Shown: piece by piece, positions 32,537-57,480 of the stretch
Layout of the letters: the number at the start of each line of letters is the position of its first letter
How positions within the stretch are numbered: position 1 is the first letter of the stretch
From: Dicyema japonicum
Lineage: Eukaryota; Dicyemida; Rhombozoa; Dicyemidae
Length of the DNA stretch: 64,000 bases
Assembly: GCA_011109175.1 (NCBI GenBank)
Contig: RDEW01000034.1
Span: forward strand, 579,556-643,555
Direction of reading: 5' to 3'
The notes under the pieces: generated by a model
The model's database searches: none
What the model saw: only the letters and a program-made list of their open reading frames with translations
What the model was told of the DNA's origin: nothing
Program-made: the position numbers and the translations under genes

Positions 32537-32930
32537 AGTTAAACTTTAATAAAGATAAATTTTATTTTTAACTACACAAACACTTAACAACTACAAAACT
32601 TTCCTTTCAGTCAAACTGGCCTCTCTGGAATTGAAAACCGATTTACTATGACGATTTGTAAAGAAATTCGCTCAATAAGCCGACTCATTTCTCCAATATC
32701 TTTCTAATTCCTTGCAATAAGCGATCCGATACGGTCAGCAGGGTAAATGATCTGCCTCTAAGATAAACAAACATATTATTCAAAAAGTGGATCCAGCACG
32801 AAAAAGTTAATCAGACACCTTCATGACATTAAGCACACATGTGTCAAACGTAATCATTGCTTCGGCACGAAAACTTAACTTCGTAAATGTGCTCGTCTCA
32901 AAATATAAAAAATCTTCAAATCGATTCTAC
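32537..32930. other. spacer before the tandem array
   Basis: No recognised gene. A short open stretch before 32930 merges into the array sequence at TTTATGTAAATTTATTAGGG, which is where similarity to the other units starts. Gene B, present before every other gene A array copy, is missing here. Confidence 0.5.
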
Positions 32931-33030
32931 ATTTATGTAAATTTATTAGGGAAGTAATAAATGCTTGTTCGCAGAAAAAATTCCAAGAAATTAATAAATC
33001 ATATAAATACTCAATTTCAGTAAAACTCAA

Positions 33031-33854
33031 ATGTTCTGGTTTTTAGTAATTGTGTTAGGAATAATAGAGATTTGTATTACATTTTATAAAAATAGCATTA
33101 CAACAATACACACCATACTCTATGGAAGTGAAATTTGATAATTTCCCAGTAATTTACTTTATTAACAATTAGGAAGACGAGATAAATTTTGTCAAATCGG
33201 TCAATATGTGTCATTAATGTTCAGGCTTTAAGAGAAGTTATGACTATAACCGAAGAGAATATTAATCCTGAACTTAGCATAACAATAAGGTAATACAACA
33301 ATTAATTCTTTTAGTCGTGGTCAAGAAAATTGTGATTACAGAGATAGTATTTTAACGGTAACAGTGCTACAGATGCTGAAGTATAGATAATTTATATTAA
33401 TAGATCTTGACTGGAAAAATATTAAAATGTCTGTTAAAAAATATTTTGCGAGGAAAAGAAGTAATAGACCCTCAATCCCGAGATTTTGATATACTACAGG
33501 ACGAAAGTGGATGGTTAATAATGTAATATTATTTTAGTGCAAGAATATTATCCGATGAACAAGTTATATTCCTTCAAGGGATAAACAAAGCAGATTTTTG
33601 AATAGAATTGTAGGTTAATAAATTATTAATATTAGAACAACCTCTGTTACGACCACCAGTACAACCACTACTCCTATACCTCCTGATGATGATGACATGG
33701 ACACAGATGAGCAAAAGATATCCATGAAGATTCTGAAAAATTAACCACCAAAGATCGCAGTAATATTGGAATAAATTGTATTATTATAATATATTCAGCA
33801 TTCAATATTATTCATTTCCTGAATGCTCTAATTATTATTGGAGTTATCATTTAA
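33031..33854 (+). pseudogene. gene A copy 1
   Basis: First array copy, same eight exons as copy 6. Exon 3 reads EDEINFVKS. Single-base losses are seen in exon 5 (GCTACAGAT instead of GCTACCAGAT), exon 7 (one T fewer in the TTTTTT run) and exon 8 (one A fewer in CAAAAAGAT). It is either decayed or affected by sequencing errors. No gene B precedes it. Confidence 0.7.
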
Positions 33855-33899
33855 TTAGATTATTAATAATTTGATTGGATTGGGTTCTCTAAATAAAAA

Positions 33900-35760
33900 T
33901 TTATTAAAATAATTTTGACTAAAACTAACAGTTAACAATATTGGATGCTCTGGTAATTGAGAACGCATTTCCTCAATATTTGCATGGTAATGTGCTCAAT
34001 GGGTCAGCTTTTTTCTCTTCAAAAATTTTTCTTTCAGATCTAATTTGTTTGGGTTTTCGAAGTCACGTGGAGAATTTCCGAGGCCAAATTCTGATTTTTG
34101 AGATCAATTACCTGTTTTTCATTTACTGACACGACCTTATCCCTCAGAAAACTCTGATTAGATACAGCGAGAAACCGGGCTTGTCGCTATGGAAGAAATT
34201 CTGTTCGTCGATTCCATGGCCGAATGTTAGCCCAAATTGGTTTGATCCTCTCAGAAGGAGACCGAGACTTGCTGCTTCGTAGAAGACCAGTCGATCGATA
34301 ATGTTGATTTTTTTAAAAATTATTTAGAGTTAAAAAAACATTGAGCCAGTTTTGGGACTCAATCTACCTTAGATAGAAATACTCTGGAATCCCACCATTT
34401 GAAGGATATTTCACCGCAACAATTAGGGAAACCTTGAGCAGGCACAAACGGGAGTTTATATAGACTGAAAATGATAATATTGAGTGCCTGTCGGCCTCCT
34501 CACTGGGATTATCACTCAAAGGGAGAATAATTTACAATTTTCTTATTATTATCCAAATTTTCAAGTTAGGTCATCCTTGCAGTCGATCTTTAGTGGACTA
34601 CAATATTTGGAGAATTATCAACATTTTGGCTTCTCGTTCCATTTAGAGTTCCCATCACTACTGAATCGCTTGCTGTACTGAATCTTTTCCTGCCGACTCC
34701 GAAAACAAAAGAAAAGTTCTCACACATTTAATGTTGTCATAAATTTGCAACCTTCTTTTCGTTTTTCTTTGATTGTATAAGACTTTTTGTCATTCAAGAG
34801 TTTGTAACTTAGAGGTTTGTTCATATGTTCATGTTAAATTAATTAAATTATTCCAAAGACCAAGGATAAGCAAACTAACTAACTCCTTGATCCTGCCTCA
34901 TTCCACCGTTCCAGAACTTGTTTCCAGGTAACGACACAGAAGAGGAGTCGTTGACCTGAACACATCCGTTTCTTCCTCATCAAAGTTACTGGAGCGTCAC
35001 TGAACTGATTTAGTGATTAATTGCTGTAACCAAATCTTCCTTCCTCGATAGTGCACATTTCATATTTATACTCTACCGACATGCTCTCCAGCGTCCTCTT
35101 AAGGACAACGGATTGAATGTATGTAGTTTGAGCTCTCTAGCAAATAAATCGTACTTATTCAATTTTTTTACTTCAGTGTGCTTCAATAATCCTTGAGAAG
35201 TAAAACTCTCCTTGAACACAACTAAACTTAAATAGTCCTCTTAAACACTTATCTATCTTATTCATCATCCTCACCATTCTCAGAAAATATTTTTAGATTA
35301 TAAATAATAGTAAGTGATTGGCTGTATACGTCATCAATGATGACTTACTTTGGGATTTAAACAATTTTGGAAATTTAAATTTTAGAATTTTGCTTAAAGG
35401 ATCCATTACTAACACACAAAGCCGGAAAGACAGACGAATCTCCTTGCAATATACCACGATTTAATTTAACGAACCCAATCTTTCCCTGTTGAAATATCGA
35501 ATAACTTTCTAATGGCTTATCAGACTTTTCACAAACGTTCCGATCCACATTGGGAAACAGAAAACTCTGAACATGGCAGAGAAAGCAATGGTCCACAAAG
35601 TTGTACGCCTTCTTTAAATCAATCCACGAAGCGAATATTTTGTTTCCATAATGACTGTTTATGCACTGATTTATTACAGCTCGCTCCTTTGCCCCTTGAC
35701 ATATCCTCCTTGCCCATGCTTTTGCAAAACTGACATACAAGGTCTCACGTGAAATTCGTA
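33900..35760 (-). mobile_element. R2-like retrotransposon debris, unit 1
   Basis: The minus strand has reverse-transcriptase pieces at 35740-35375: KERAVINQCINSHYGNKIFA, SWIDLKKAYNFVDHCFL (palm motif A), and GFVKLNRGILQGDSS (motif B), followed downstream by a decayed thumb and a basic tail. This unit still has Asp in IDLKKAY, where several later units have Tyr. Stops and shifts rule out activity. Confidence 0.75.
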
Positions 35761-36283
35761 TTATTATAATATATTTATTCCTGATTGTTTTTAATAGTTA
35801 AATGTTTATTTAATGATCTTGGTTGTTTTACTGTGGTCTTGAGATTTAATTAAATAAAATTTTATTTTTCATGTGAAAACAATTTATTACGTAACAAGAC
35901 AATCAAAATAATCCACTTGATTGATGAAATGGATGTTTCTTTGACAACTGCCAGAGAAATCCTTTGGAACAACATTCGATTTCCCGACTCTCATTCTTCA
36001 CTTTCGAAATCATTGACCCAAGCGATTTTAGAAAAGAGACGTCTTGGCTCCACTCGTCTAGACAACAACGGGTTGTACATGGAATCTGAATGAGAGGCTA
36101 TCTTATTTTTTTATATTGAGAGTATTGAAGGTAAGAGCAGCCTCCCCAAATGAAAATTTATTATGAAATTATTAATTAAAAGACAGTTGTTATTAATTAA
36201 AGTTAATTAACTTAAAGTCATGAAAAAATTACTTTTATGATCTACAGGTATTAAGCACGGTCTTTTTATGATATTCACACAAA

Positions 36284-36587
36284 ATGGAAAACCGCCAGAA
36301 GAACGGTGTTTTCGAAAATTTGTTGGTTCCCGAGAGACACTGGGAAAAGATGAGAATATTGCTGAGAAGCCAGGATCAGCTGATGGCGTTTGTATTTTAA
36401 TTATTGTTTACCTTGTGATTTATGACTTAATAATAATAGATTGGAATACTATTTAAAAAACGATAGTGGAATGACCACTCAGATTATAATGGTATCAGCA
36501 TCCAAGTATTTTAAAAAGCGTTCTCAAAAGACATACCACCATCGGGATTGTAAAAATGATATTAATTCAGATTCTAAATTTATGTAA
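36284..36587 (+). CDS. gene B copy in front of gene A copy 2
   Basis: Two exons with a 52-nt intron, as described for the copy at 55208. Its stop codon lies about 90 bp before the gene A start. Confidence 0.45.
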
Positions 36588-36677
36588 ATTTATTAAGGAA
36601 GTAATAAATGCTTGTTCGCAGAAAAAATTCCAAGAAATTAATAAATCATATAAATACTCAATTTCAGTAAAACTCAA

Positions 36678-37502
36678 ATGTTCTGGTTTTTAGTAATTGT
36701 GTTAGGAATAATAGAAATTTGTATTACATTTTATAATAATAGCATTACAACAATACACACCATACCCTATGAGAGTGAAATTTGATAATTTCCCAGTAAT
36801 TTACTTTATTAACAATTAGGAGACGAGAGAAATTTTGTCATACGGTCAAAATGTGTCATTAATGTTAGGCATTAGGAGAAGTTATGACTATAACCGAAGA
36901 GAATATTAATCCTGAACTTACCATAACAATAAGGTAATACAACAATTAATTCTTTTAGTCGTGGTCATGAAAATTGTGATTACAGAGATAGTATTTTAAC
37001 GGTAACAGTGCTACCAGATGCTGAAGTATAGATAATTTATATTAATAGATCTTGACTGGAAAAATATTAAAATGTCTGTTAAAAAATATTTTGCGAGGAA
37101 AAGAAGTAGGAGACGATAAATCCCGAGATTTTGATATACTACATGACGAAAGTGGATGGTTAATAATGTAATATTATTTTAGCGCAAGAATATTATCCGA
37201 TGAACAAGTTTTATTCCTTCAAGAGATAAACAAAGCAGATTTTTTGAAAAGAATTGGAGGTTAACAAATTATTAATATTAGAACAACCTACTGTTACGAC
37301 CACCAGTACAACCACTACTCCTATACCTCCTGATGATAATGATATGGACACAGATGAGCAAAAAGATATCCATGAAGATTCTGAAAAATTAACCACCAAA
37401 GATCGCAGTAATATTGGAATAAATTGTATTATTATAATATATTCAGCATTCAATATTATTCATTTCCTGAATGCTCTAATTATTATTGGAGTTATCATTT
37501 AA
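36678..37502 (+). pseudogene. gene A copy 2
   Basis: Same structure as copy 6. Exon 3 is two bases short (ATACGG for ATACCGG plus another lost base). Exon 6 has a seven-codon variant, GTAGGAGACGATAAATCCCG, of unchanged length. The last exon is intact and reads DDNDMDTDEQKDIHEDSEKL through to the hydrophobic end. Confidence 0.7.
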
Positions 37503-37569
37503 TTAGATTATTAATAATTTGATTGGATTGGGTTCTCTAAATAAAAGGATTTATTAAAATAATTTTGAC

Positions 37570-39400
37570 TAAAACTAACAGTTAACAATTATTGGATGCT
37601 CTGGTAATTGAGAACGCATTTCCTCGATGATTTGCATCGTAATGTGCTCAATGGGTCAGCTTTTTTCTCTTCAAAAATTTTTCTTTCAGATCTAATTTGT
37701 TTGGGTTTTATCGAAGTCACGTGGAGAATTTCCGAGGCCAAATTCTGATTTTTGAGATCAATTATCTGTTTTTAATTTACTGACACGACCTTATCCCTCA
37801 GAAAACTCTGATTAGATACAGCGAGAAACCGGGCTTGTCGCTATGGAAGAAATTCTGTTCGTCGATTCCATGGCCGAATGTTAGCCCAAATTGTTGATCC
37901 TCTCAGAGGAGACCGAGACTATGCTGCTCTTCGTAGAAGACCAGTCGATCGATAATGTTGATTTTTTTAAAAATTATTTAGAGTTAAAAAGAACATTGAG
38001 CCAGTTTTGGGACTCAATCTACCTTAGATAGAAATACTCTGGAATCCCACCATTTGAAGGATATTTCACCGCAACAATTAGGGAAACCTTGAGCAGGCAC
38101 AAACGGGAGTTTATATAGACTGAAAATGATAATATTGAGTGCCTGTCGGCCTCCTCACTGGGATTATCACTCAAAGGGAGAATAATTTACAAGTTTCTTA
38201 TTATTATCCAGAATTTTCAAGGTTAGGTCATCCTTGCAGTCGATCTTAAGTGGACTACATTATTTGGAGAATTAATCAACATTTTGGCTTCTTCGTTCCA
38301 TTTAGGTTCCCATCACTTGCTGAATCGCTTGCTGTACTGAATCTTTTCTTGCCGACTCTAAAAACTCAAGAAAAGTTTCTAACACATTTAATATTGTCAT
38401 AAATTTGCAACCTTCTTTTCGTTTTTCTTTGATAGTTTAAGACTTTTTGCCATTCAACAGTTTGTAACTTAGAGGTTTGTTCACATGTTCATGTTAAATT
38501 AATTAAATTATTCCAAAGACCAAGGATAAACAAACTAACTAACTCCTTGATCCTGTCTCGTTCCACCGTTCCAGAACTTGTTTCCAGGCAACGACACTGA
38601 AGAGGAGTCGTTGACCTGTAACCCATCCGTTTCTTCCTCATCAAAGTTACCTGGAGCGTCACTGAACTGATTTATTGATTAATTGCTGTAACCAAATCTT
38701 CCTTCCTCGATAGTGCACATTTCATATTTATACTCTACCAACATGCTCTCCAGCGTCCTCTTGAGGACAACGGATTGAATGTATGTAGTTTGAGCTCTCT
38801 AGCAAATAAATCGTACTTATTCAACTTTTTTACTTCAGTGTGCTTCAATAATCCTTGAGAAGTATAACTCTCCTTAAACACAACTAAACTGAAATAATCA
38901 TCTATCTCATTCATCATCCTCACCATTCTCAGCAAATATTTTTAGATTATCAATAATAGTAAGTGATTGGCTGTATACGTCATCAATGATTAATTACTTT
39001 GGGATATAGACAATTTTGGAAATTTAAATTTTAGAATTTTGCTTAAAGGATCCATTACTAACACACAAAGCCGGAAAGACAACGAATCTCCTTGCAATAT
39101 ACCACGATTTAATTTAACGAAAACAATCTTTCCTGTTGAAATTCGAATAACTTTCTAATGGCTTATCAGACTTTTCACAAACCTTCCGATCCACATTGGG
39201 AAACAGAAAACTCAGAACATGGCAGAGAAAGCAATAGTCCACAAAGTTGTACGCCTTCTTTAAATCAATCCACGAAGCAAATAGTTTGTTTCCATAATGA
39301 CTGTTTATGCACTGATTTATTACAGCTCGCTCCTTTGCCCCTTGACATATCCTCCTTGCCCCATTTTTGCGGAACTGACATACAAGGTCTCACGTGAAAT
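37570..39400 (-). mobile_element. R2-like retrotransposon debris, unit 2
   Basis: Same segment as in unit 1. The minus strand of 38935-38735 reads MLRMVRMMNEIDDYFSLVVF and KKLNKYDLFARELKLHTFNP, a region after the palm. The 3' end directly follows gene A copy 2, pointing toward it. Confidence 0.7.
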
Positions 39401-39573
39401 TCGTATTATTATAATATATTTATTCCTGATTGTTTTTAATGGTTAAATGTTTATTTAATGATCATGGTTGTTTTACTGTGGTCTTGAGATTTAATTAAAT
39501 AAAATTTTATTTTTCATGTGAAAACAATTTATTACGTAACAAGACAATCAAAATAATCCACTTGATTGATGAA

Positions 39574-39741
39574 ATGGATGTTTCTTTTGACAACTGCCAG
39601 AAGAAATCCTTTGGAACAACTATTCGATTTCCCGACTCTCATTCTTCACTTTGGAAATCATTGACCCAAGCGATTTTAGAAAAGAGGCGTCTTGGCTCCA
39701 CTCGTCTAGACAACAACGGGTTGTACATGGAATCTGAATGA
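39574..39741 (+). other. short plus-strand ORF opposite the LINE debris in unit 3
   Basis: A 55-codon frame starting MDVSFDNCQKKSFGTTIRFP and ending NNGLYMESE. Other units are shifted here or read differently, and the minus strand of the same region matches the C terminus of RLE family 1. I therefore think this is an accidental frame, though a 5' exon of gene B cannot be excluded. Confidence 0.15.
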
Positions 39742-39930
39742 GAGGCTATCTTATTTTTTATCTTGAAATTATTAAAAGTAAGAGCAGCCTCCCCAAATGA
39801 AAATTTATTATGAAATTATTAATTAAAAGACAGTTGTTATTAATTAAAGTTAATTAATTTAAAGTCATGAAAAAATCACTTTTATGATCTACAAGTATTA
39901 AGCACGGTCTTTTTATGATATTCACACAAA

Positions 39931-40233
39931 ATGAAAACCGCCAGAAGAACGGTGTTTTCGAAAATGTGTTGGTTCCCGAGAGACACTGGGAAAAGATGAG
40001 AATATTGCTGAGAAGCCAGGATCAGCTGATGGCGTTTGTATTTTAATTATTGTTTACCTTGTGATTTATGACTTAATAATAATAGATTGGAATACTATTT
40101 AAAAAACGATAGTGGAATGACCACTCAGATTATAATGGTATCAGCATCCAAGTATTTTAAAAAGCGTTCTCAAAAGACATACCACCATCGGGATTGTAAA
40201 AATGATATTAATTCAGATTCTAAATTTATGTAA
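39931..40233 (+). pseudogene. gene B copy in front of gene A copy 3
   Basis: One G is missing directly after the start codon (ATGAAAACC for ATGGAAAACC), which shifts the frame. The SINE lies between it and the next gene A. Confidence 0.4.
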
Positions 40234-40322
40234 ATTTTTAAGGAAGTAATAAATGCTTGTTCGCAGAAAAAATTCCAAGAAATTAATAAATCATATAAAT
40301 ACTCAATTTCAGTAAAACTCAA

Positions 40323-40655
40323 TGCCGGTGGCTTAGTGGTTAGGTGTCGGGCTTAAGTGGCTTAGGCTACGGGTTCGAATCTCGCTTGCTGTTCACCTTG
40401 GTGGAAGGTTCACGCATCTACGATGCAGAAATGGTTTGACGAGTGACGCCGTCATCAGTGAATACTCACTGCGGAACTGAATTTGTCTAGAAAGGACACT
40501 CACACAAGAAAAAGAAAAAAAGAAGTGAAGATCATTCCTTGGTTCTACGATTAGTTAAAATTAACTGTTCTTTACTTAAATAAAGTGTGTGTCCTGCTAT
40601 GCGGAGCTATAAAATACTATGGCTCTCGTGAAAAGGCTTTATTATTATTATTATT
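40323..40655 (+). mobile_element. tRNA-derived SINE in unit 3
   Basis: The head has a polymerase III box A (TGGCTTAGTGG, 40329-40339) and box B (GGTTCGAATCT, 40372-40382). The middle contains TGACGAGTGACGCCGTCATC and ACTCACTGCGGAACTGA; the 3' part is ACTTAAATAAAGTGTGTGTC then CGGAGCTATAAA...GGCTCTCGTGAAA, and the tail is (ATT)n. It is flanked by the duplicated target AGTAAAACTCAA (40311-40322) and AGTAAAAACTCAA (40656-40668). The 3' part matches the RTE-like LINE end at 29036-29072. Confidence 0.9.
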
Positions 40656-40668
40656 AGTAAAAACTCAA

Positions 40669-41493
40669 ATGTTCTGGTTTTTAGTAAATTGTGTTAGGAA
40701 TAATAGAATTTGTATTACATTTATAATAATAGCATTACAACAATACACACCATACTCTATGGAAGTGAAATTTGATAATTTCCCAGTAATTTACTTTACT
40801 AACAATTAGGGAGACGAGAGAAATTTTGTCATACCGGTCAAAATGTGTCATTAATGTTTAGGCATTAGGAGAAGTTATGACTATAACCGAAGAGAATAAT
40901 AATCCTGAACTTAGCATAACAATAAGGTAATACAACAATTAATTCTTTTAGTCGTGGTCAAGAAAATTGTGATTACAGAGATAGTATTTTAACGGTAACA
41001 GTGCTACAGATGCTGAAGTATAGATAATTTATATTAATAGATCTTGACTGGAAAAATATTAAAATGTCTGTTAAAAAATATTTTGCGAGGAAAAGAAGTA
41101 ATAGACCCTCAATCCCGAAAATTTTGATATACTACAGGACGAAAGTGGATGGTTAATAATGTAATATCATTTTAGCGCAAGAATATTATCCGATGATCAA
41201 GTTTATTCTTCAAGGGATAAACAAAGCAGACTTTTTGAATAGAATTGGAGGTTAATAAATTATTAATATTAGAACAACCTCCTGTTACGACCACCAGTAC
41301 AACCACTACTCCTATACCTCCTGATGATGATGACATGGACACAGATGAGCAAAAAGATATCCATGAAGATTCTGAAAAATTAACCACCAAAGATCGCAGT
41401 AATATTGGAATAAATTGTATTATTATAATATATTCAGCATTCAATATTATTCATTTCCTGAATGCTCTAATTATTATTGGAGTTATCATTTAA
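40669..41493 (+). pseudogene. gene A copy 3 (SINE directly upstream)
   Basis: Same structure, but the first exon and intron have three single-base indels (GTAAATTG, AGAATTTG, CATTTATAA). The SINE at 40323-40655 ends immediately before the AGTAAAAACTCAA that precedes the ATG, so any promoter or leader is separated from this copy by 333 bp. The last exon is intact. Confidence 0.7.
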
Positions 41494-41559
41494 TTAGATT
41501 ATTAATAATTTGATTGATTGGGTTCTCTAAATAAAAGGATTTATTAAAATAATTTTTGA

Positions 41560-43390
41560 CTGAAACTAACAGTTAACAATAATTGATGCTCTGGTAATTG
41601 AGAACGCATTTCCTAATAATTTGCATGGTAATGTGCTCAATGGTCAGCTTTTTTCTCTTCAAAAAATTTTTCTTTCAGATCTAATTTGTTTGGGTTTTGT
41701 CGAAGTCACGTGGAGAATTTCCGAGGCCAAATTCTGATTTTTGAGATCAATTACCTGTTTTTCATTTACTGACACGACCTTATCCTCAAAACTCTGATTA
41801 GATACAGCGAGAAACCGGGCTTGTCGCTATGGAAGAAATTCTGTTCGTCGATTCCATGCCGAATGTTAGCCCAAATTGTTGATCCTCTCAGAGGAGACCG
41901 AGACCATGCTGCTCTTCGTAGAAGACCAGTCGATCGATAATGTTGATTTTTTTAAAAATTATTTAGAGTTTAATAAAAAAAACATTGAGCCAGTTTTGGG
42001 ACTCAGTCTACCTTAGATAGAAATACTCTGGAATCCCATTTGAAGGATATTTCACCGCAACAATTTGGGAAACCTCGAGCAGGCACAAACGGGAGTTTAT
42101 ATAGACTGAAAATGATAATATTGAGTGCATGTTGGCCTCCTCACTGGGATTATCACTCAAAGGGAGAATAATCTTACAATTTTCTTATTATTATCCAGAA
42201 TTTTCAAGGTTAGGTCATCCTTGCAGTCGATCTTAAGTGGACTACATTATTTGGAGAATTAATCAACATTTTGGCTTCTTCGTTCCATTTAGGGTTCCCA
42301 TCACTTGCTGAATCGCTTGCTGTACTGAATCTTTTCCTGCCGACTCCAAAAACTCAAGAAAAGTTTCTCACACATTTAATATTGTCATAAATTTGCAACC
42401 TTCTTTTCGTTTTTCTTTGATTGTTTAAGACTTCCTTTTTGCCATTCAACAGTTTGTAAATTAGAGGTTTGTTCACATGTTCATGTTAAATTAATTAAAT
42501 TATTCCAAAGACCAAGGATAAGCAAACTAACTAACTCCTTGATCCTGACTCGTTCCACCGTTCCAGAACTTGTTTCCAGGCAACGACACAGAAGAGGAGT
42601 CGTTGACCTGAAACCCATCCGTTTCTTCCTCATCAAAGTTACCTGGAACGTCACTGAACTGATTTATTGATTGATTGCTGTAACCAAATCTTCCTTCCTC
42701 GATAGTGCTCATTTCATATTTATACTTTACCAACATGCACTCCAGCGTCCTCTTGAGACAACGGATTGAATGTATGTAGTTTGAGCTCTCTAGCAAATAA
42801 ATCGTACTTATTCAACTTTTTTACTTCAGTGTGCTTCAATAATCCTTGAGAAGTAAAACTCCTTTTAAACACAACTAAACTGAAATAATCATCTATCTCA
42901 TTCATCATCCTCACCATTCTCAGCAAATATTTTTAGATTATCAATAATAGTAAGTGATTGGTTGTATACGTCATCAATGATTAATGACTTTGGGATATAG
43001 ACAATTTTGGAAATTTATTATTTAGAATTATGCTTAAAGGATCCGTGACAAACACAAATAGCCGGAAAGACAACGAATCTCCTTGCAATATACCACAATT
43101 TAATTTAACTATTCCATTCCTTGTTGAAATTTAGAATAACTTTCCACTGGCTTATCAGATTTTTCACAAACCTTCCAATCCACATTGGGAAGCAGAAAAC
43201 TCAGAACATGGAGAGAAAGCATTGGTCCACAGAGTCGTACGCCTTCTTTAAATAAATCCACGAAGCGAATAGTTTGTTTCCATAATCATTGTTTATGCAT
43301 TGATTTATTAAAGCTCGTTCTTTCGCCCCTTGACACATCCTCCTTGCTCCATGCTTTTGCAAAACTGACATACAAGGACTCACGTGAAAT
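41560..43390 (-). mobile_element. R2-like retrotransposon debris, unit 3
   Basis: The same segment, more diverged at the 5' side (43383-43201 reads GAKERALINQCINNDYGNKL and YLKKAYDSVDQCF). It retains YDSVDQ, closer to an ordinary motif A than the YNFVDH of other units. The minus strand of 42796-42527 gives LVKYKYEMSTIEEGRFGYSN. Confidence 0.7.
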
Positions 43391-44225: not shown

Positions 44226-44315
44226 ATTTATTAAGGAAGTAATAAATGCTTGTTCGCAGAAAAAATTCCAAGAAATTAATAAATCATATAAATACTCAAT
44301 TTCAGTAAAACTCAA

Positions 44316-47020: not shown

Positions 47021-47543
47021 ATATATTATATTTATTCCTGATTGTTTTTAAGGGTTAAATGTTTATTTAATGATCATGGTTGTTTTACTTTGGTCTTGAG
47101 ATATTAATTAAATAAAATTTTATTTTTCATGTGAAAACAATTTATTACGTAACAAGACAATCAAAATAATCCACTTGATTGATGAAATGGATGTTTCTTT
47201 TGACAACTGCCAGAAAAATCCTTTGGAACAACCATTCGATTTCCCGACTCTCATTCTTCACTTTGGAAATCATTGACCCAAGCGATTTTAGAAAAGAGGC
47301 GTCTTGGCTCCACTCGTCTAGACAACAACGGGTTGTACATGGAATCTGAATGAGAGGCTATCTTATTTTTTTATCTTGAAATTATTAAAAGTAAGAGCAG
47401 CCTCCCCAAATGAAAATTTATTATGAAATTATTAATTAAAAGACAGTTGTTATTAATTAAAGTTAATTAATTTAAAGTCATGAAAAAATCACTTTTATGA
47501 TCTACAAGTATTAAGCACGGTCTTTTTATGATATTCACACAAA

Positions 47544-47847
47544 ATGAAAAACCGCCAGAAGAACGGTGTTTTCGAAAATGTGTTGGTTCCCGAGAGACAC
47601 TGGGAAAAGATGAGAATATTGCTGAGAAGCCAGGATCAGCTGATGGCGTTTGTATTTTAATTATTGTTTACCTTGTGATTTATGACTTAATAATAATAGA
47701 TTGGAATACTATTTAAAAAACGATAGTGGAATGACCACTCAGATTATAATGGTATCAGCATCCAAGTATTTTAAAAAGCGTTCTCAAAAGACATACCACC
47801 ATCGGGATTGTAAAAATGATATTAATTCAGATTCTAAATTTATGTAA
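47544..47847 (+). CDS. gene B copy in front of gene A copy 5
   Basis: Same model; residue 2 is Lys instead of Glu, and ENLL becomes ENVL. The frame is kept. The SINE separates it from gene A. Confidence 0.45.
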
Positions 47848-47936
47848 ATTTATTAAGGAAGTAATAAATGCTTGTTCGCAGAAAAAATTCCAAGAAATTA
47901 ATAAATCATATAAATACTCAATTTCAGTAAACTCAA

Positions 47937-48268
47937 TGGCGGTGGCTTAGTGGTTAGGTGTCGGGCTTAAGTGGCTTAGGCTACGGGTTCGAATCTCGCT
48001 TGCTGTTCACCTTGGTGGAAGGTTCACGCATCTACGATGCAGAAATGGTTTGACGAGTGACGCCGTCATCAGTGAATACTCACTGCGGAACTGATTTGTC
48101 TAGAAAGGACACTCACACAAGAAAAAGAAAAAAAGAAGTGAAGATCATTCCTTGGTTCTACGATTAGTTAAAATTAACTGTTCTTTACTTAAATAAAGTG
48201 TGTGTCCTGCTATGCGGAGCTATAAAATACTATGGCTCTCGTGAAAAGGCTTTATTATTATTATTATT
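47937..48268 (+). mobile_element. tRNA-derived SINE in unit 5 (same insertion as unit 3)
   Basis: Nearly identical to the copy at 40323 and at the same position relative to gene A, with the same flanking duplication. It is therefore one insertion copied by array duplication, not two independent events. Confidence 0.9.
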
Positions 48269-48281
48269 AGTAAAAACTCAA

Positions 48282-49109
48282 ATGTTCTGGTTTTTAGTAA
48301 TTGTGTTAGGAATAATAGAAATTTGTATTACATTTTATAATAATAGCATTACAACAATACACACCATACCCTATGACAGTGAAATTTGATAATTTCCCAG
48401 TAATTTACTTTATTAACAATTAGGAGACGAGAAGAAATTTTGTCATACCGGTCAAAATGTGTCATTAATGTTTAGGCTTAGGAGAAGTTATGACTATAAC
48501 CGAAGAGAATATTAATCCTGAACTTACCATAACAATAAGGTAATACAACAATTAATTCTTTTAGTCGTGGTCAAGAAAATTGTGATTACAGAGATAGTAT
48601 TTTAACGGTAACAGTGCTACCAGAAGCTGAAGGTATAGATAATTTATATTAATAGATCTTGACTGGAAAAATATTAAAATGTCTGTTAAAAAAATTTTTG
48701 CGAGGAAAAGAAGTAATAGACCCTCAATCCCGAAAATTTGATATACTACAGGACGAAAGTGGATGGTTAATAATGTAATATCATTTTAGCGCAAGAATAT
48801 TATCCGATGATCAAGTTTTATTCCTTCAAGGGATAAACAAATCAGATTTTTTGAATAGAATTGTAGGTTAATAAATTTTTAATATTAGAACAACCTACTG
48901 TTACGACCACCAGTACAACCACTACTCCTATACCTCCTGATGATGATGACATGGACAAAGATGAGCAAGAAGATATCAATGAAGATTCTGAAAAATTAAC
49001 CACCAAAGATCGCAGTAATATTGGAATAAATTGTATAATTATAATATATTCAGCATTCAATATTATTCATTTCCTGAATGCTCTAATTATTATTGGAGTT
49101 ATCATTTAA
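48282..49109 (+). pseudogene. gene A copy 5 (SINE directly upstream)
   Basis: Same structure, with the SINE at 47937-48268 directly upstream at the same site as in copy 3. One extra G lies at the exon 5 donor (GAAGGTATAG), and the poly-A run of exon 6 differs (AAAAAAATTTTTGCG). The last exon reads DKDEQEDINEDSEKL, a variant stretch. Confidence 0.7.
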
Positions 49110-49179
49110 TTAGATTATTAATAATTTGATTGGATTGGGTTTTCTAAATAAAAGGATTTATTAAAATAATTTTGACTAA

Positions 49180-51010
49180 AACTAACAGTTAACAATTATT
49201 GATGCTCTGGTAATTGAGAACGCATTTCCTTCAATAATTTGCATGGTAATGTGCTCAATGAGTCAGCTTTTTTCTCTTCAAAAATTTTTCTTTCAGATCT
49301 AATTTGTTTGGTTTTTGTCGAAGTCACGTGGAGAATTTCCGAGGCCAAATTCTGATTTTTGAGATCAAATACCTGTTTTTCATTTACTGAGACGACCTTA
49401 TCCCTCAGAAAACTCTGATTAGACACAGCGAGAAACCGGGCTTGTCGCTATGGAAGAAATTCTGTTCGTCGATTCCATGGTCGAATGTTTGCCCAAATTG
49501 TTTATCCTCTCAGAGGAGACCGAGACCATGCTGCTCTTCGTAGAAGACCAGTCGATCGATAATGTTGATTTTTTTAAAAATTATTTAGAGTTAAAAAAAC
49601 ATTGAGCCAGTTTTGGGACTCAATCTACCTTAGATAGAAATACTCTGGAATCCCACCATTTGAAGGATATTTCACCGCAACAATTAGGGAAACCCTGAGC
49701 AGGCACAAACGGGAGTTTATATAGACTGAAAATGATAATATTGAGTGTCTGTCGGCCTCCTCACTGGGATTATCACTCAAAAAGAGAATAATTTTACAAT
49801 TTTCTTATTATTATCCAGAATTTTCAAGGTTAGGTCATCCTTGCAGTCGATCTTAAGTGGACTACATTATTTGGAGAATTAATCAACATTTTGGCTTCTT
49901 CGTTCCATTTAAGGTTCCCATCACTTGCTGAATCGCTTGCTGTACTGAATCTTTTCCTGGCGACTCCAAAAACTCAAGAAAAGTTTCTCACACATTTAAT
50001 ATCGTCATAAATTTGCAACCTTCTTTTCGTTTTCTTTGATAGTTTAAGACTTCCTTTTGCCATTCAACAGTTTGTAACTTAGAGGTTTGTTCACATGTTC
50101 ATGTTAAATTAATTAAATAATTCCAAAGACCAAGGATAAGCAAACTAACTAACTCCTTATCCTGTCTCGTTCCACCGTTCCAGAACTTGTTTCCAGGCAA
50201 CGACACAGAAGAGGAGTCGTTGACCTGAAACCCATCCGTTTCTTCCTCATCAAAGTTACCTGGAACGCCACTGAACTGATTTATTGATTAATTGCTGTAA
50301 CCAAATTTTCCTTCTTCGATAGTGCTCATTTCATATTTATACTCTACCAACATGCACTACAGCATCCTCTTGAGACAACGGATTGAATGTATGTAGTTTG
50401 AGCTCTCTAACAAATAAATCGTACTTATTCAACTTTTTTACTTAGTGTGAATCAATAATCCTTGAGAAGTAAAACTCCTCTTAAACACAACTAAACTGAA
50501 ATAATCATCTATCTCATTCATCATCCTCACCATTCTCAGCAAATATTTTTAGATTATAAATAATAGTAAGTGATTGGCTGTATACGTCATCAACGATTAA
50601 TTACTTTGGGATATAGACAATTTTGGAAATTTAAATTTTAGAATTTTGCTTAAAGGATCCATTACTAACACACAAAGCCGGAAAGACAGCGAATCTCCTT
50701 GCAATATACCACGATTTAATTTAACGAACCCAATCTTTCCCTGTTGAAATATCAGATAACTTTCCAATTGCATATCAGACTCTTCACGAACCTTCCAATC
50801 CAAATTGGGAAACAGAAAACTCTGAACATGGCAGTGAAAGCAATAGTCTACAAAGTTGTACGCCTTCTTTAAATAAATCCACGAAGCGAATATTTTGTTT
50901 CCTTAATCACTGTTTTTGCACTGATTTATTACAGCTCGCTCCTTCGCCCCTTGACATATCCTCCTTGCCCATGCTTTTGCAAAACTGACATACAAGGTTT
51001 CACGTAAAAT
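49180..51010 (-). mobile_element. R2-like retrotransposon debris, unit 5
   Basis: Same segment. The minus strand of 50803-50597 reads KLNRGILQGDSLSFRLCVLV and MDPLSKILKF (motif B and following). The tail at 49426-49196 reads MSNQSFLRDKVVSVNEKQVF and FEEKKADSLSTLP. Confidence 0.75.
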
Positions 51011-51541
51011 TCGTATTATTATAATATATTTATTCCTGATTGTTTTTATTGGATTAAATGTTTATTTAATGATCTTGGTTGTTTTACTGTGGTCTTGAGA
51101 TGTTAAATAAATAAAATTTTATTTTTCATTTGAAAACAATTTATTACATAACAAGACAATCAAAATAATCCACTTGATTGATGAAATAGATGTTTCTCTT
51201 GACAACTGCCAGAGAAATCCTTTGGAACAACCATTCGATTTCCCGACTCTCATTCTTCACTTTCGAAATCATTGACCCAAGCGATTTTAGAAAAGAGACG
51301 TCTTGGCTCCACTCGTCTAGACAACAACGGGTTGTACATGGAATCTGAATGAGAGGCTATCTTATTTTTTTATATTGAGAGTATTGAAGGTAGAGCAGCC
51401 TCCCCAAATGAAAATTTATTATGAAATTATTAATTAAAAGACAGTTGTTATTAATTAAAGTTAATTAACTTAAAGTCATGAAAAAATCACTTTTATGATC
51501 TACAGGTATTAAGCACGGTCTTTTTATGATATTCACACAAA

Positions 51542-51846
51542 ATGGAAAACCGCCAGAAGAACGGTGTTTTCGAAAATTTGTTGGTTCCCGAGAGACACTG
51601 GGAAAAGATGAGAATATTGCTGAGAAGCCAGGATCAGCTGATGGCGTTTGAATTTTAATTATTGTTTACCTTGTGATTTATGACTTAATAATAATAGATT
51701 GCAATACTATTTAAAAAATCGATAGTGGAATGACCACTCAGATTATAATGGTATCAGCATCCAAGTATTTTAAAAAGCGTTCTCAAAAGACATACCACCA
51801 TCGGGATTGTAAAAATGATATTAATTCAGATTCTAAATTTATGTAA
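51542..51846 (+). CDS. gene B copy in front of gene A copy 6
   Basis: Same model; the intron donor region reads GTTTGAATTT, and there is an extra base near 51719 (AAAAAATCGATAG), so the second exon is probably shifted. Confidence 0.4.
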
Positions 51847-51936
51847 ATTTATTAAGGAAGTAATAAATGCTTGTTCGCAGAAAAAATTCCAAGAAATTAA
51901 TAAATCATATAAATACTCAATTTCAGTAAAACTCAA

Positions 51937-52763
51937 ATGTTCTGGTTTTTAGTAATTGTGTTAGGAATAATAGAAATTTGTATTACATTTTATAATAATA
52001 GCACTACAACAATACACACCATACCCTATGAGAGTGAAATTTGATAATTTCCCAGTAATTTACTTTATTAACAATTAGGGAGACGAGAGAAATTTTGTCA
52101 TACCGGTCAATATGTGTCATTAATGCTTAGGCATTAGGAGAAGTTATGACTATAACCGAAGAGAATATTAATCCTGAACTTAGCATAACAATAAGGTAAT
52201 ACAACAATTAATTCTTTTAGTCGTGGTCAAGAAAATTGTGATTACAGAGATAGTATTTTAACGGTAACAGTGCTACCAGATGCAGAAGTATAGATAATTT
52301 ATATTAATAGATCTTGACTGGAAAAATATTAAAATGTCTGTTAAAAAATATTTTGCGAGGAAAAGAAGTAATAGACCCTCAATCCCGAAATTTTGATATA
52401 CTGCAGGACGAAAGTGGATGGTTAATAATGTAATATCATTTTAGTGCAAGAATATTATCCGATGATCAAGTTTTATTCCTTCAAGGGATAAACAAAGCAG
52501 ATTTTTTGAAAAGAATTGGAGGTTAACAAATTATTAATATTAGAACAACCTCCTGTTACGACCACCAGTACAACCACTACTCCTATACCTCCTGATGATG
52601 ATGACATGGACACAGATGAGCAAAAGATATCCATGAAGATTCTGAAAAATTAACCACCAAAGATCGCAGTAATATTGGAATAAATTGTATTATTATAATA
52701 TATTCAGCATTCAATATTATTCATCTCCTGAATGCTCTAATTATTATTGGAGTTATCATTTAA
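51937..52763 (+). CDS. gene A copy 6: predicted single-pass surface protein (best-preserved copy)
   Basis: Exons 51937-51979, 52002-52054, 52079-52105, 52131-52195, 52221-52287, 52311-52429, 52451-52521 and 52544-52763. The seven GT-AG introns are 22, 24, 25, 25, 23, 21 and 22 nt, and every phase agrees. The product, about 221 residues: a hydrophobic start MFWFLVIVLGIIEIS (signal peptide), an ectodomain with SITISRGQENCDYRDSILTV, two cysteines and LRGKEVIDPQS, then VLFLQGINKADFLKRIG, a Thr/Pro stalk (TTTSTTTTPIPP) typical of O-glycosylated linkers, an acidic run, and a C-terminal hydrophobic segment IGINCIIIIYSAFNIIHFLN. This suggests a membrane-anchored, outward-facing protein. The family is not recognised. 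This copy lacks one A in exon 8 (CAAAAGAT), the only frame break seen. Confidence 0.78.
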
Positions 52764-52839
52764 TTAGATTATTAATAATTTGATTGGATTGGGTTCTCTA
52801 AATAAAAGGATTTATTAAAATAATTTTGACTAAAACTGA

Positions 52840-54670
52840 CAGTTAACAATAATTGATGCTCTGGTAATTGAGAACGCATTTCCTCCAATAATTTGCATGG
52901 AAATGTGCTCAATGGGTCAGCTTTTTTCTCTTCAAAACTTTTTCTTTCTGATCTAATTCGTTTGGGCTTTATCGAAGTCACGTGGAGAATTTCCGAGGCC
53001 AAATTCTGATTTTTGAGATCACATACCTGTTTTTCATTTACTGACACGACCTTATCCCTCAGAAAACTCTGATTAGACACAGCGAGAAACCGGGCTTGTC
53101 GCTATGGAAGAAATTCTGTTCGTCGATTCCATGGCCGAATGTTTGCCCAAATTGTTGATCCTCTCAGAGGAGACCGAGACCATGCTGCTCTTCGTAGAAA
53201 ACCGTCGATCGATAATGTTGATTTTTTTAAAAATTATTTAGAGTATTAATTTAAAAAAAAAACATTGAGCCAGTTTTGGGACTCAATCTACCTTAGATAG
53301 AAATACTCTGGAATCCAACCATTTGAAGGATATTTCACCGCAACAATTTGGGAAACCCCGAGCAGGCACAAACGGGAGTTTATATAGACTGAAAATGATA
53401 ATATTGAGTGTCTGTCGGCCTCCTCACTGGGATTATCACTCAAAAAGAGAATAATTTACAATTTTCTTATTATTATCCAGAATTTTCAAGGTTAGGTCAT
53501 CCTTGCAGTCGATCTTAAGTGGACTACATTATTTGGAGAATTAATCAACATTTTGGCTTCTTCGTTCCATTTAGGGTTCCCATCACTTGCTGAATCGCTT
53601 GCTGTACTGAATCTTTTCCTGGCGACTCCAAAAACTCAAGAAAAGTTTCTCACACATTTAATATTGTCATAAATTTGCAACCTTCTTTTCGTTTTCTTTG
53701 ATTGTTTAAGACTTCCTTTTTGCCATTCAACAGTTTGTAACTTAGAGGTTTGTTCACATGTTCATGTTAAATTAATTAAATTATTCCAAAGACCAAGGAT
53801 AAGCAAACTAACTAACTCCTTATCCTGTCTCGTTCCACCGTTCCAGAACTTGTTTCCAGGCAACGACACAGAAGAGGAGTCGTTGACCTGAAACCCATCC
53901 GTTTCTTCCTCATCAAAGTTACCTGGAACGCCACTGAACTGATTTATTGATTAATTGCTGTAACCAAATCTTCCTTCCTCGATAGTGCACATTTCATATT
54001 TATACTCTACCAACATGCTCTCCAGCATCCTCTTGAGGACAACGGATTGAATGTATGTAGTTTGAGCTCTCTAACAAATAAATCGTACTTATTCAACTTT
54101 TTTACTTAGTGTGAATCAATAATCCTTGAGAAGTAAAACTCCTCTTAAACACAACTAAACTGAAATAATCATCTATCTCATTCATCATCCTCACCATTCT
54201 CAGCAAATATTTTTAGATTATCAATAATAGTAAGTGATTGGCTGTATACGTCATCAATGATTAATTACTTTGGGATATAGACAATTTTGGAAATTTAAAT
54301 TTTAGAATTTTGCTTAAAGGATCCATTACTAACACACAAAGCCGGAAAGACAACGAATCTCCTTGCAATATACCACGATTTAATTTAACGAACCCAATCT
54401 TTCCTTGTTGAAATTTCGAATAACTTTCCAATGGCTTATGAGACTCTTCACAAACCTTCCAATCCACATTGGGAAACAGAAAACTCAGAACATGGCAGAG
54501 AAAGCAATGGTCCACAAAGTTGTACGCCTTCTTTAAATAAATCCACGAAGCGAATATTTTGTTTCCATAATGACTGTTTATGCACTGATTTATTACAGCT
54601 CGCTCCTTCGCCCCTTGACATATCCTCCTTGCTCCATGCTTTTGCGAAATTGACATACAAGGACTCACGT
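52840..54670 (-). mobile_element. R2-like retrotransposon debris, unit 6 (longest open reverse-transcriptase stretch)
   Basis: The minus strand of 54668-54261 is open for 135 codons: QGAKERAVINQCINSHYGNK, FASWIYLKKAYNFVDHCFLC, GKIGFVKLNRGILQGDSLSF and LCVLVMDPLSKILKFKFPKL. It covers palm motifs A and B. The catalytic Asp of motif A is Tyr here. The tail at 53080-52772 has RSERKSFEEKKADPLSTFPC. At 55050-54800 (and the same place in other units) the minus strand reads LKSLGSMISKVKNESREIEW and FQRIFLAVVKRNI, which matches the C terminus of RLE family 1, so two different LINE ends are fused in each unit. Confidence 0.75.
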
Positions 54671-55207
54671 GAAATTCGTATTATTATAATATATTTATTC
54701 CTGATTGTTTTTAATTAGTTAAATGTTTATTTAATGATCTTGGTTGTTTTACTGTGGTCTTGAGATGTTAATTAAATAAAATTTTATTTTTCATGTGAAA
54801 ACAATTTATTACGTAACAAGACAATCAAAATAATCCACTTGATTGATGAAATGGATGTTTCTTTTGACAACTGCCAGAAAAATCCTTTGGAACAACCATT
54901 CGATTTCCCGACTCTCATTCTTCACTTTGGAAATCATTGACCCAAGCGATTTTAGAAAAGAGGCGTCTTGGCTCCACTCGTCTAGACAACAACGGGTTGT
55001 ACATGGAATCTGAATGAGAGGCTATCTTATTTTTTTATCTTGAAATTATTAAAAGTACGAGCAGCCTCCCCAAATGAAAATTTATTATGAAATTATTAAT
55101 TAAAAGACAGTTGTTATTAATTAAAGTTAATTAATTTAAAGTCATGAAAAAATCACTTTTATGATCTACAAGTATTAAGCACGGTCTTTTTATGATATTC
55201 ACACAAA

Positions 55208-55511
55208 ATGGAAAACCGCCAGAAGAACGGTGTTTTCGAAAATTTGTTGGTTCCCGAGAGACACTGGGAAAAGATGAGAATATTGCTGAGAAGCCAGGAT
55301 CAGCTGATGGCGTTTGTATTTTAATTATTGTTTACCTTGTGATTTATGACTTAATAATAATAGATTGGAATACTATTTAAAAAACGATAGTGGAATGACC
55401 ACTCAGATTATAATGGTATCAGCATCCAAGTATTTTAAAAAGCGATCTCAAAAGACATACCACCATCGGGATTGTAAAAATGATATTAATTCAGATTCTA
55501 AATTTATGTAA
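55208..55511 (+). CDS. gene B: small basic protein, unknown function
   Basis: Exon 1 is 55208-55311 and exon 2 is 55364-55511, with a 52-nt GT-AG intron whose last 25 nt (GTGATTTATG...AATAG) also look like a complete micro-intron. The 83-residue product starts MENRQKNGVFENLLVPERHW, continues KMRILLRSQDQLMALEYYLK, and ends with a basic part, SKYFKKRSQKTYHHRDCKND. No signal peptide, membrane segment or known motif. The join gives one open frame in several units, which argues for a gene. However, another frame is also open over exon 1 (starting MIFTQNGKPPEER), so the assignment is tentative. Extra 5' exons may exist upstream. Confidence 0.5.
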
Positions 55512-55601
55512 ATTTATTAAGGAAGTAATAAATGCTTGTTCGCAGAAAAAATTCCAAGAAATTAATAAATCATATAAATACTCAATTTCAGTAAAACTCA
55601 A

Positions 55602-56438
55602 ATGTTCTGGTTTTTAGTAATTGTGTTAGGAATAATAGAGATTTGTATTACATTTTATAAAATAGCACTACAACAATACACACCATACTCTATGGAAGTG
55701 AAATTTGATAATTTCCCAGTAATTTACTTTATTAAAAATTAGGGAGACGAGATAGATTTTGTCATCGGTCAATATGTGTCATTAATGTTCAGGCTCTAAG
55801 AGAAGTTATGACTATAACCGAAGAGAATATTAATCCTGAACTTACCATAACAATAAGGTAATACAACAATTAATTCTTTTAGTCGTGGTCAAGAAAATTG
55901 TGATTACAGAGATAGTATTTTAACGGTAACAGTGCTACAAGATGCTGAAGTATAGATAATTTATATTAATAGATCTTGACTGGAAAAATATTAAAATGTC
56001 TGTTAAAAAATATTTTGCGAGGAAAAGAAGTAATAGACCCTCAACCCCGAGAATTTGATATACTACAGGACGAAAGTGGATGGTTAATAATGTAATATCA
56101 TTTTAGCGCAAGAATATTATCCGATGAACAAGTTTTATTCCTTCAAGGGATAAACAAATCAGACTTTTTGAATAGAATTGTAGGTTAATAAATTTTTAAT
56201 ATTAGAACAACCTACTGTTACGACCACCAGTACAACCACTACTCCTATACCTCCTGATGATGATGACATGGACACAGATGAGCAAAAAGATATCCATGAA
56301 GATTCTGAAAAATTAACCACCAAAGATCGCAGTAATATTGGAATAAATTGTATTATTATAATATATTCAGCATTCAATATTATTCATTTCCTGAATGCTC
56401 TAATTATTATTGGAGTTATCATTCAATTAGATTATTAA
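55602..56438 (+). pseudogene. gene A copy 7 (last in array)
   Basis: Same structure. The first intron has lost two bases (TTTATAAAATAG), and exon 3 is two bases short (GTCATCGG), breaking the frame. The stop is extended by QLDY. It is followed not by the R2-like debris of the other units but by the reversed composite element at 56590-57480. Confidence 0.7.
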
Positions 56439-56589
56439 TAATTTGATTGGATTGGGTTCTCTAAATAAAAAGATTTATTAAAATAATTTTTGACTAAAAA
56501 ACTAACAGTTAACAATTATTGGATGCTCTGGTAATTGAGAACGCATTTCCTCGATGATTTGCATCGTAATGTGCTCAATGGGTCAGCTT

Positions 56590-57480
56590 TTTTCTCTTCA
56601 TTCCTTTTTTTTTGATATGTTTATCAGGGTCAGAGACCTGTTTCTTATGATTCCTACCATCTCACGGTGACTGGTTAAAAAATGAATTGTCTATCGATAC
56701 ATTCGAAATTCTCATCTTTAGGGAATCTGTCTTTTCCGAGGCTGAGTCTGTATTAGATGTTCAAATATGATATCCGAGATATTCAAACAAGTGGCGTCCC
56801 AGCCGAGGTATGAGTCTGTATTAGATGTTCAAATATGATATCTGAGATATTCAAACAAGTGGCGTCCCATTTTCCCATGTAAAGAGATTTGTTTCTTCAG
56901 ACTTTTTGTTGGTTTAGGGAAGTCCGATAGGCTCAACTTGACACGAAAACCGACCGCTTATACTCCTCCACCAATAACTCAGATGATTTAACTGATTCTC
57001 GGATTCCTTTAACGACTCTTCCTCAAAAGAGAAAGTTAATACATTTAGCGTCGACCATTCTTCCACATCTACAGCTATTGATCACACAAACATCTATTTC
57101 GAGGCGGAAGCAAACCACAATTCTTGTGGCTTCGTCATCAAGTGTCCCAAATGAGTTGCATGAGAATGATGTGAGTCCTGCAACACTTCGGTTTGTCGAT
57201 GTAGAAACAATCGTGCCAAGTTATATCTCATCAATAGTCTGAGCATAAAAGTTTGTCCCAGTCTCGTTGTTTATTAGAGTTCTTTAGGAATCTCACACAT
57301 AGACGCATCCAGCATTCCTAAGCTGCCCATGTCACTGGTCAGAGACCAGTTCGCAAGGCTGTAATTAATTATCACCTCGATTGATTTCCAAAAATATTTT
57401 GGTCACTCCTGGTATCAAATTTCACAGACCAGTCAATAAGAGTTGAGATTTCTATTATGATGCCTCATTTTTCCGAAATA
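56590..57480 (-). mobile_element. reversed copy of the composite element at 16190-17157
   Basis: Matches 16250-17157 in reverse, including the Arg-rich C-terminal tail and the endonuclease scrap (16490-16720 corresponds to about 57240-57030). A 60-bp segment with GAGTCTGTATTAGATGTTCA is duplicated in tandem at 56743-56870. Confidence 0.7.

Follow-up and report, generated by a model that had tools for sequence, protein, structure and literature searches.

A tandem array of a short-intron gene in Dicyema japonicum, its frame-broken copies and dispersed open copies of a probable secreted or surface protein

The window analysed here, a stretch of 64,000 nucleotides of Dicyema japonicum contig RDEW01000034.1 whose GC content varies from 28 to 44% across 2-kb windows, carries between 32.9 and 56.6 kb seven direct copies (T1 to T7) of one gene, gene A, all on the forward strand. 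They lie in six full units of 3647, 3646, 3992, 3622, 3999 and 3665 bases, followed by a last partial unit: unit 1 at 32906..36552 (exons of T1 at 33031-33866), unit 2 at 36553..40198 (T2, 36678-37514), unit 3 at 40199..44190 (T3, 40669-41505), unit 4 at 44191..47812 (T4, 44316-45153), unit 5 at 47813..51811 (T5, 48282-49121), unit 6 at 51812..55476 (T6, 51937-52775) and the partial unit at 55477..56600 (T7, 55602-56438), the first exon position being the gene start in each case. The seven direct copies and the period of 3.65 kb announced in a preliminary description of this DNA were both recovered, the period rising to 3.99-4.00 kb in the two units whose start codon is preceded by a SINE. The six full units show 94.8-97.4% pairwise identity, the SINE-disturbed first columns being excluded. 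An eighth gene copy of the window, W8, lies outside the array in inverted orientation (17218..18053, reverse strand) and has its frame broken in exon 6.

One and the same tRNA-like SINE accounts for the extra 0.33 kb or so in units 3 and 5; it occupies an identical position immediately ahead of the ATG (forward strand; 40323..40655 in unit 3, between the upstream region and the T3 ATG, and 47937..48268 in unit 5). It has A-box- and B-box-like sequences and a TTA tail, and in unit 3 it is flanked by a AGTAAAACTCAA-like duplication. We take this element to be tRNA-derived; ARAGORN did not confirm a tRNA origin, and Rfam and tRNA scans of the whole window gave no matches. The retrotransposon debris said to accompany the array is indeed there: a Pfam scan of two array-spacer ORFs gave a weak match to RVT_1 (E 0.0054, below Pfam's cut-off) for a reverse-transcriptase-like fragment antisense to the gene at 54264..54680 (reverse strand), and no match for the unit-1 spacer ORF at 35378-35797 (reverse strand). 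TTAGGG telomere repeats were absent from the four stretches scanned, including the end of contig C120.

In the 64.7-Mb assembly (64.67 Mb) we found 17 copies or remnants of the family and aligned 14 of them, with copy C38b as the reference for alignment and indel comparison. The gene model of eight exons and seven introns is supported by the copies elsewhere in the assembly. Indeed, every aligned copy except C83a, which retains introns 1-4, has the same seven short introns (13 of 14), GT..AG stands at the aligned columns in 91 of 98 introns (14 copies × 7), and this set is kept although DNA identity among the aligned copies drops to about 73%. The seven introns that depart from GT..AG are found once each in T4, T5, C38a and C120d, partly through gap placement, and three times in C83a. 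Introns of the open copies measure 22-25 nt, and intron 1 of T3 and T7 measures 21 nt; exons range from 27 to 233 nt with variable phases (43, 53, 27, 65, 67, 110, 77 and 230 nt in C38b). The splice columns thus bear out the multi-exon gene with seven introns of 21-25 nt proposed at the outset, but the accompanying statement that all phases fit holds for four dispersed copies only, and for none of the seven array copies with conserved splice sites, nor for W8. Genes with such short introns escape ORF scans.

The spliced product has a hydrophobic signal-like N-terminus, an ectodomain, a variable Thr/acidic linker and a conserved C-terminal hydrophobic segment; a Thr/Pro stretch and an acidic stretch are both present. 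In a hydrophobic-segment scan of two of the four open proteins, the values of C38b rose above 1.6 at residue 1 and again from residue 191 onward, those of C115 only at the C-terminal segment. Because three of the four open copies end directly after this segment, a GPI-attachment signal is an alternative to a type I membrane segment. The surface-protein architecture first described (signal peptide, Thr/Pro stalk, acidic linker and C-terminal membrane segment) stands as a prediction from the spliced sequence, and its ectodomain has, as claimed, no recognisable family: there was no significant match in a protein collection of 5.8 billion sequences, possibly with few eukaryotes, searched with a single sequence and a four-sequence profile, and none among PDB sequences; a Pfam scan of three spliced proteins out of four gave only two weak matches, both below the cut-off (E 0.03 and 0.2). 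Its sequence suggests that the product is probably surface-anchored or secreted, and of a small, unrecognised and fast-changing family.

None of the seven array copies is open to its end with the conserved splice sites. Under the conserved model the frame is broken in exons 5, 7 and 8 of T1, in exon 3 of both T2 and T7, at several places in T3, in exons 2 and 3 of T4 and in exon 4 of T5, and T6 is open for 183 residues, covering ectodomain and stalk, up to a frameshift before the C-terminal hydrophobic segment. Each array copy carries at least one exon indel that is not a multiple of three. Of the 25 exon indels counted in the array copies against C38b, 18 are of this kind, and so are all 13 exon indel events among the six full units. 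Eleven of these 13 are private to one unit; two frame breaks are common to units, one to units 1 and 3 and the other to units 1 and 6. With all columns upstream of the ATG masked, exons and spacer of the six full units have similar rates of indels (19.3 vs 23.1 per kb, p = 0.66) and of substitutions (87.4 vs 96.7 per kb, p = 0.51). T2 (217 residues) and T7 (221 residues, with an alternative intron-3 donor) become open when splice sites are shifted by up to 10 nt, so the term "mostly decayed" refers to the conserved sites. The earlier suggestion of higher dosage or variety through the array is weakened: the tandem amplification stands, and the exon indels and spacer-like exon rates speak against the rest. 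Tandem copy number is not the number of working genes.

Four dispersed copies (C38b, C109, C115 and C120d) have a full open frame of 177-230 residues, and all 12 exon indels of the last three relative to C38b are multiples of three. C120d encodes 177 residues (178 by alignment columns) when its intron-5 donor is read as GT; this intron shows TA..AG because the alignment set the donor three bases off. In C109, which contains one N, the anchor is in frame, with the motif GKNCI differing from GINCI by one letter. We infer that the dispersed open copies are working genes. Over 1205 aligned columns, the upstream flank of T1 (31723..32923) matches that of C109, an open single copy, with 92% identity, and the downstream flank of T7 (56600..57441) has homologues downstream of W8, C38a, C38b, C109 and C115. 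T1 and T7 consequently bear the two flanks of a C109-type locus, and these likely represent its ancestral 5′ and 3′ sides, respectively.

The signal of selection comes from the dispersed open copies, outside the window. The ectodomain dN/dS was 1.48-2.59 in the six pairs of the four open copies, which are non-independent and, where they include C120d, uncertain in the alignment of exons 5-7. It exceeded a neutral simulation (null medians 0.84-0.88) in five of the six pairs (p < 0.05, per pair, uncorrected), the C109-C115 pair having a simulated p of 0.054, and the excess was strongest in residues 83-147. Within the array, pN was 0.032 and pS 0.038, with no sign of positive selection. Architecture and divergence together suggest that the product probably acts at the host interface. 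To our knowledge, the molecular contact of dicyemids with their cephalopod host has been little studied. The literature listings on dicyemid surface proteins and positive selection, as far as they extend, hold no report of such a family, nor do the titles of those on tandem arrays with positive selection, ectodomains, pseudogenes and parasites. If confirmed, gene A and its relatives would represent diversifying selection on an orphan family of surface proteins in a dicyemid.

We consider it reasonably probable that gene A represents a fast-evolving, lineage-restricted orphan family of secreted or surface proteins, with working dispersed copies and a mostly decaying array. Its product would consist of an N-terminal signal, an orphan ectodomain of about 130 residues, an optional Thr/Pro stalk, an acidic linker and a C-terminal hydrophobic anchor. 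In the dispersed copies the ectodomain, mainly its membrane-proximal half, would diversify as a changing partner exerts selection on it; that partner would most likely be the host, or alternatively a mate or gamete. The array would have originated by repeated tandem duplication of the gene with a transposon-laden spacer inside a C109-type locus, and would then have recombined internally (alignment columns 300-470, misaligned beside the SINE, were left out of the recombination count). It would now be mostly decaying, its exons having no protection against frameshifts.

A rather unlikely, though serious, possibility is that the array copies are working and raise dosage, the frameshifts being long-read consensus errors left unpolished in a repeat. 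Assembly indel error is plausible because W8, C38a and C38b have few substitutions between them yet several 1-2-nt indels, almost as many as the substitutions, both within exons and, in places, beyond them. The N of C109, the private nature of most array exon indels and the opening of T2 and T7 by shifted splice sites point in the same direction, as does an indel:substitution ratio in the array (0.20-0.25 in the six pairs of units without a SINE; 0.09-0.22 in pairs with unit 3 or 5, affected by misaligned columns beside the SINE) at or above the values of 0.11 and 0.22 for the single-copy flanks of C109/C115. However, in 22 of 27 comparisons of flanks the ratio falls within 0.09-0.31, a range that includes that of the array, and this similarity weakens the plain reading of a noisy assembly. 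Moreover, array substitutions, like indels, are without exon constraint, two breaks are common to units, and a SINE stands ahead of the ATG in T3 and T5.

It is improbable, in our view, that some array copies stay useful through alternative splicing, with the exon-3 break avoided by means of an upstream donor for intron 3 or a displaced acceptor, and with T6 giving an anchor-less secreted form. The nearby open paths of T2 and T7 would allow it, and T6 retains signal, ectodomain and stalk, but the alternative intron-3 donor yields an intron longer than the remaining six and, read by eye, is missing in C120d, C83a, C83b and C83c. The reverse-transcriptase debris in the spacer, the membrane-protein architecture and the dispersal of the copies could also recall an envelope-like accessory gene of a retroelement rather than a host family, a reading that we find scarcely credible. 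We rejected it in view of the seven conserved introns, which would be unexpected in retrotransposed cargo, and of the downstream flank common to dispersed copies (about 260 bp to 2.4 kb), as in segmental duplication. In addition, in the few kb examined, spacer debris near an open copy was limited to a pair of 150-190 bp pieces, situated 2.3 and 3.5 kb past the gene on C109; C115 likewise has about 400 bp in common, immediately upstream of its gene.

A functional tandem array has open frames under coding constraint; here, in the array as assembled, no copy is open to its end with the conserved splice sites, and exon rates in the six full units are close to those of the spacer. Trypanosome VSG and Anaplasma msp2 are antigen families with pseudogene reservoirs and, like them, gene A has intact dispersed copies and a bank of broken ones. 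Indeed, the dispersed open copy C120d and array copy T2 have a tract of 99.5% identity (185/186), against 77.5% upstream. Unlike in VSG and msp2, this tract covers the conserved anchor and the 3′ end, not the variable ectodomain. We give little credence to the idea that the broken copies form a sequence bank from which array recombination and gene conversion renew the diversifying surface protein of the dispersed open copies; if true, an animal parasite made up of about 30 cells would use a pseudogene-reservoir scheme like that of certain protozoan and bacterial antigens.

The exons of schistosome micro-exon genes (MEGs) are symmetric, being divisible by three, and among the first seven exons of C38b only exon 3 is. 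MEGs, which stand with other rapidly evolving secreted families of the host-parasite interface, resemble the predicted gene A in that a large number of short exons encodes a secreted protein; the title of one study claims accelerated evolution (PMC4350168), and another gives MEG exons of 3-81 bp and introns of up to 5 kbp (PMC10526429). Gene A, with exons of 27-233 nt, introns of 22-25 nt and varying phases, differs from this and is comparable to MEGs only in how it would work; we do not assign it as a member. The portions consulted of the dicyemid intron and genome literature (PMC2222250, PMC6543705, PMC6736024) present no surface-protein family of this kind; they report a genome of about 65-67 Mb with a GC content of about 37% and many repeats, in line with the size of this assembly and the base composition of the window, and introns with a mean of 26.2 nt and a median of 27. 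The introns of gene A (22-25 nt) and those of three actin loci of the assembly (about 27 nt, read by eye) match the miniature introns so described for dicyemids.

The preliminary description of seven direct copies of gene A is borne out by a self-comparison of the window and a first-exon search. The copies (T1 to T7) start at 33031, 36678, 40669, 44316, 48282, 51937 and 55602, and the array spans 32906-56600, with six full units of 3622-3999 bases followed by an incomplete seventh. The greater length of units 3 and 5 is due to a shared ~0.33-kb element, which we take to be a tRNA-derived SINE; it sits at an identical site directly before the ATG of T3 (40323-40655) and of T5 (47937-48268), with a TTA-repeat tail in each. 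Its 16-base tRNA A-box-like string occurs at these two sites only in the whole window, with up to two mismatches allowed, and ARAGORN made no tRNA call anywhere in the window. Excluding the first columns disturbed by this element, pairwise identity among the full units is 94.8-97.4%. Since the SINE is shared by units 3 and 5 and missing from unit 4, which lies between them, units 3 and 5 have either a later common ancestor or exchanged sequence. Informative sites also fall in blocks, with less conflict between neighbouring sites than after shuffling (0.34 vs a mean of 0.54; 0/1000 shuffles reached so low a value), a sign of recombination between the array units.

The upstream flank of T1 matches that of C109, an open copy elsewhere in the assembly, over 1205 columns at 92%, and the downstream flank of T7 matches those of W8 (the eighth copy in the window), C38a, C38b, C109 and C115 at 82-90%; the array therefore probably expanded within a single-copy locus. 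Its spacer carries antisense reverse-transcriptase-like fragments, the best match (E 0.0054) falling short of the Pfam cut-off.

Searched at the DNA level, the 64.67-Mb assembly (191 contigs) yielded at least 17 gene A copies or remnants after merging of the listed matches: the seven of the array, W8 on the minus strand, C120d on the array's own contig ~70 kb off, two on C38, one each on C109, C115 and C155, and three on C83. The full alignment took in 14 of the 17, leaving out two C83 copies and the C155 copy, which are degraded pieces. All seven introns are recognisable in 13 of the 14, and C83a, at ~73% DNA identity, retains introns 1-4. GT..AG is found at the aligned columns in 91 of 98 introns, which in the reference copy C38b measure, in order, 22, 24, 25, 25, 23, 24 and 22 nt. 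Frames run from start to stop in C38b (223 aa), C109 (230), C115 (223) and C120d (177, or 178 by alignment columns), all outside the window. Furthermore, the exon indels of the last three relative to C38b are all multiples of three (12/12), which would not be expected of a non-coding origin. These other copies support the predicted exon-intron structure.

In many copies, intron 3 has a second, frame-preserving GT donor nine bases upstream; the 25-nt form of the intron is the one common to the diverged copies. A TTTCAG string ending 10 bases before the ATG is found in the array copies (in T3 and T5 it precedes the SINE), W8, C38a, C38b and C109, and is not retained in C115, C120d and C83a; it might belong to a 5'-UTR intron or a trans-splice acceptor.

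The earlier statement that all phases fit does not hold for any copy in the window with conserved splice sites. Indeed, none of the seven array copies is open to its end in this way, T6 losing its anchor after 183 open codons. Relative to C38b, the array exons carry 25 indels, 18 of which have a length not divisible by three, with at least one such in every copy. When the six full units were compared (T7 excluded), exons and spacer differed neither in indel rate (19.3 vs 23.1 per kb, p=0.66) nor in substitution rate (87.4 vs 96.7 per kb, p=0.51), and all 13 exon indel events were not multiples of three, 11 being private to one unit and two common to two units. Judging from its sequence as assembled, the array consists for the most part of copies in decay. 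Two results count against this. The frames of T2 and T7 are open, perhaps by chance, if splice-site shifts of up to 10 nt are allowed, and W8 and C38a have exon differences from C38b that are rich in indels (one indel to two substitutions, and three to three, respectively), which suggests assembly error in repeats. The indel:substitution ratio is 0.20-0.25 in the array (six SINE-free unit pairs), and 0.09-0.31 in 22 of 27 flank comparisons (0, 0.40, 0.43, 0.50 and 0.75 in the remaining five), the two between the flanks of the single-copy C109 and C115 giving 0.11 and 0.22. Error is therefore possible as a source of the array indels, and not required.

The predicted product of the open copies has a hydrophobic N-terminus, an ectodomain of ~130 residues in which C69 and C94 are invariant (4/4), a Thr/Pro stalk of varying length (long in C115, missing in C120d), an acidic stretch and, last, a ~28-residue hydrophobic segment in which N, H and C residues are invariant. 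As the protein stops directly after this segment in three of the four copies, a GPI signal in place of a membrane span would be a genuine alternative. Searches of Pfam, of PDB sequences and of 5.8 billion proteins gave no significant relatives; the family is an orphan and probably surface-anchored. C120d and T2 are 77.5% identical over their 5' part and match at 185 of 186 positions over the 3' end, a conversion-like tract that covers the anchor and not the ectodomain and may have been copied in either direction.

Ectodomain dN/dS (Nei-Gojobori) is 1.48-2.59 across the six open-copy pairs, which share branches and are thus non-independent, parts of the alignments with C120d being uncertain. 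Against a neutral simulation (1000 runs per pair, with the mutation spectrum of private changes in the array spacer; null medians 0.84-0.88), five of the six pairs have p<0.05, uncorrected for multiple tests, the sixth being C109-C115 (0.054). Over the whole protein five pairs pass (all but C38b-C109, 0.263), and over the stalk and anchor none of the six. The nearly open T6 gives ectodomain p values of 0.483, 0.236, 0.049 and 0.001 against the four open copies. The nonsynonymous excess lies mainly in residues 83-147 (for C38b-C115, pN 0.24 vs pS 0.09), pN being close to pS in residues 16-82. At the sequence level, the family has diverged in the way expected under diversifying selection, and a host-interface function appears most likely. 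The initial observation is confirmed and strengthened, apart from the fit of the phases in the window copies.

Elsewhere in the window, a LINE-type reverse-transcriptase ORF lies at 11437-12309 on the minus strand (RVT_1, E 4e-12), and 27.6-28.7 kb is an inverted, 78% related copy of 10.9-12.0 kb. A 216-codon minus-strand ORF (30553-31200), with only a weak Trp_repressor match under the Pfam cut-off, presumably resembles the start of a pogo/Tigger-type transposase. Plus-strand ORFs at 5.2-6.9 kb are Lys/Glu/Asn-rich and coiled-coil-like, and this region holds a direct repeat (~95 bp, 84%) at 6673-6859. A short repeat (~85-105 bp) 3' of C83a, at about 4255-4363 on the minus strand of stretch L013, recurs in at least 23 further places on other contigs. 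On contig C38, 25.8-46 kb holds a ~10.9-kb tandem duplication with one gene A copy in each half; stretches of it match window 4.0-18.7 kb in a different order, so that it is a segmental duplication or else a second haplotype that has been rearranged.

Very short gaps also separate the exons of actin genes in the same assembly, and three of these genes, compared by eye with actin, have a ~27-nt insertion at one site. Actin-family loci are many (76 exon-level matches to Pfam PF00022), some being equal-scoring pairs on one contig, inverted (C94) or direct (C137), a multiplicity that agrees with a published comment on multicopy genes in Dicyema. Published values are, for Dicyema japonicum, a 67.5-Mb genome with a GC of 36.7%, a mean intron of 38 bp and 48.9% repeats (PMC6736024), for D. 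acuticephalum introns of 26.2 nt (PMC2222250), and for Dicyema sp. a median intron of 27 bp vs 57 in an orthonectid (PMC6543705). The intron length of gene A, the GC of the window and the assembly size are in keeping with these dicyemid values.
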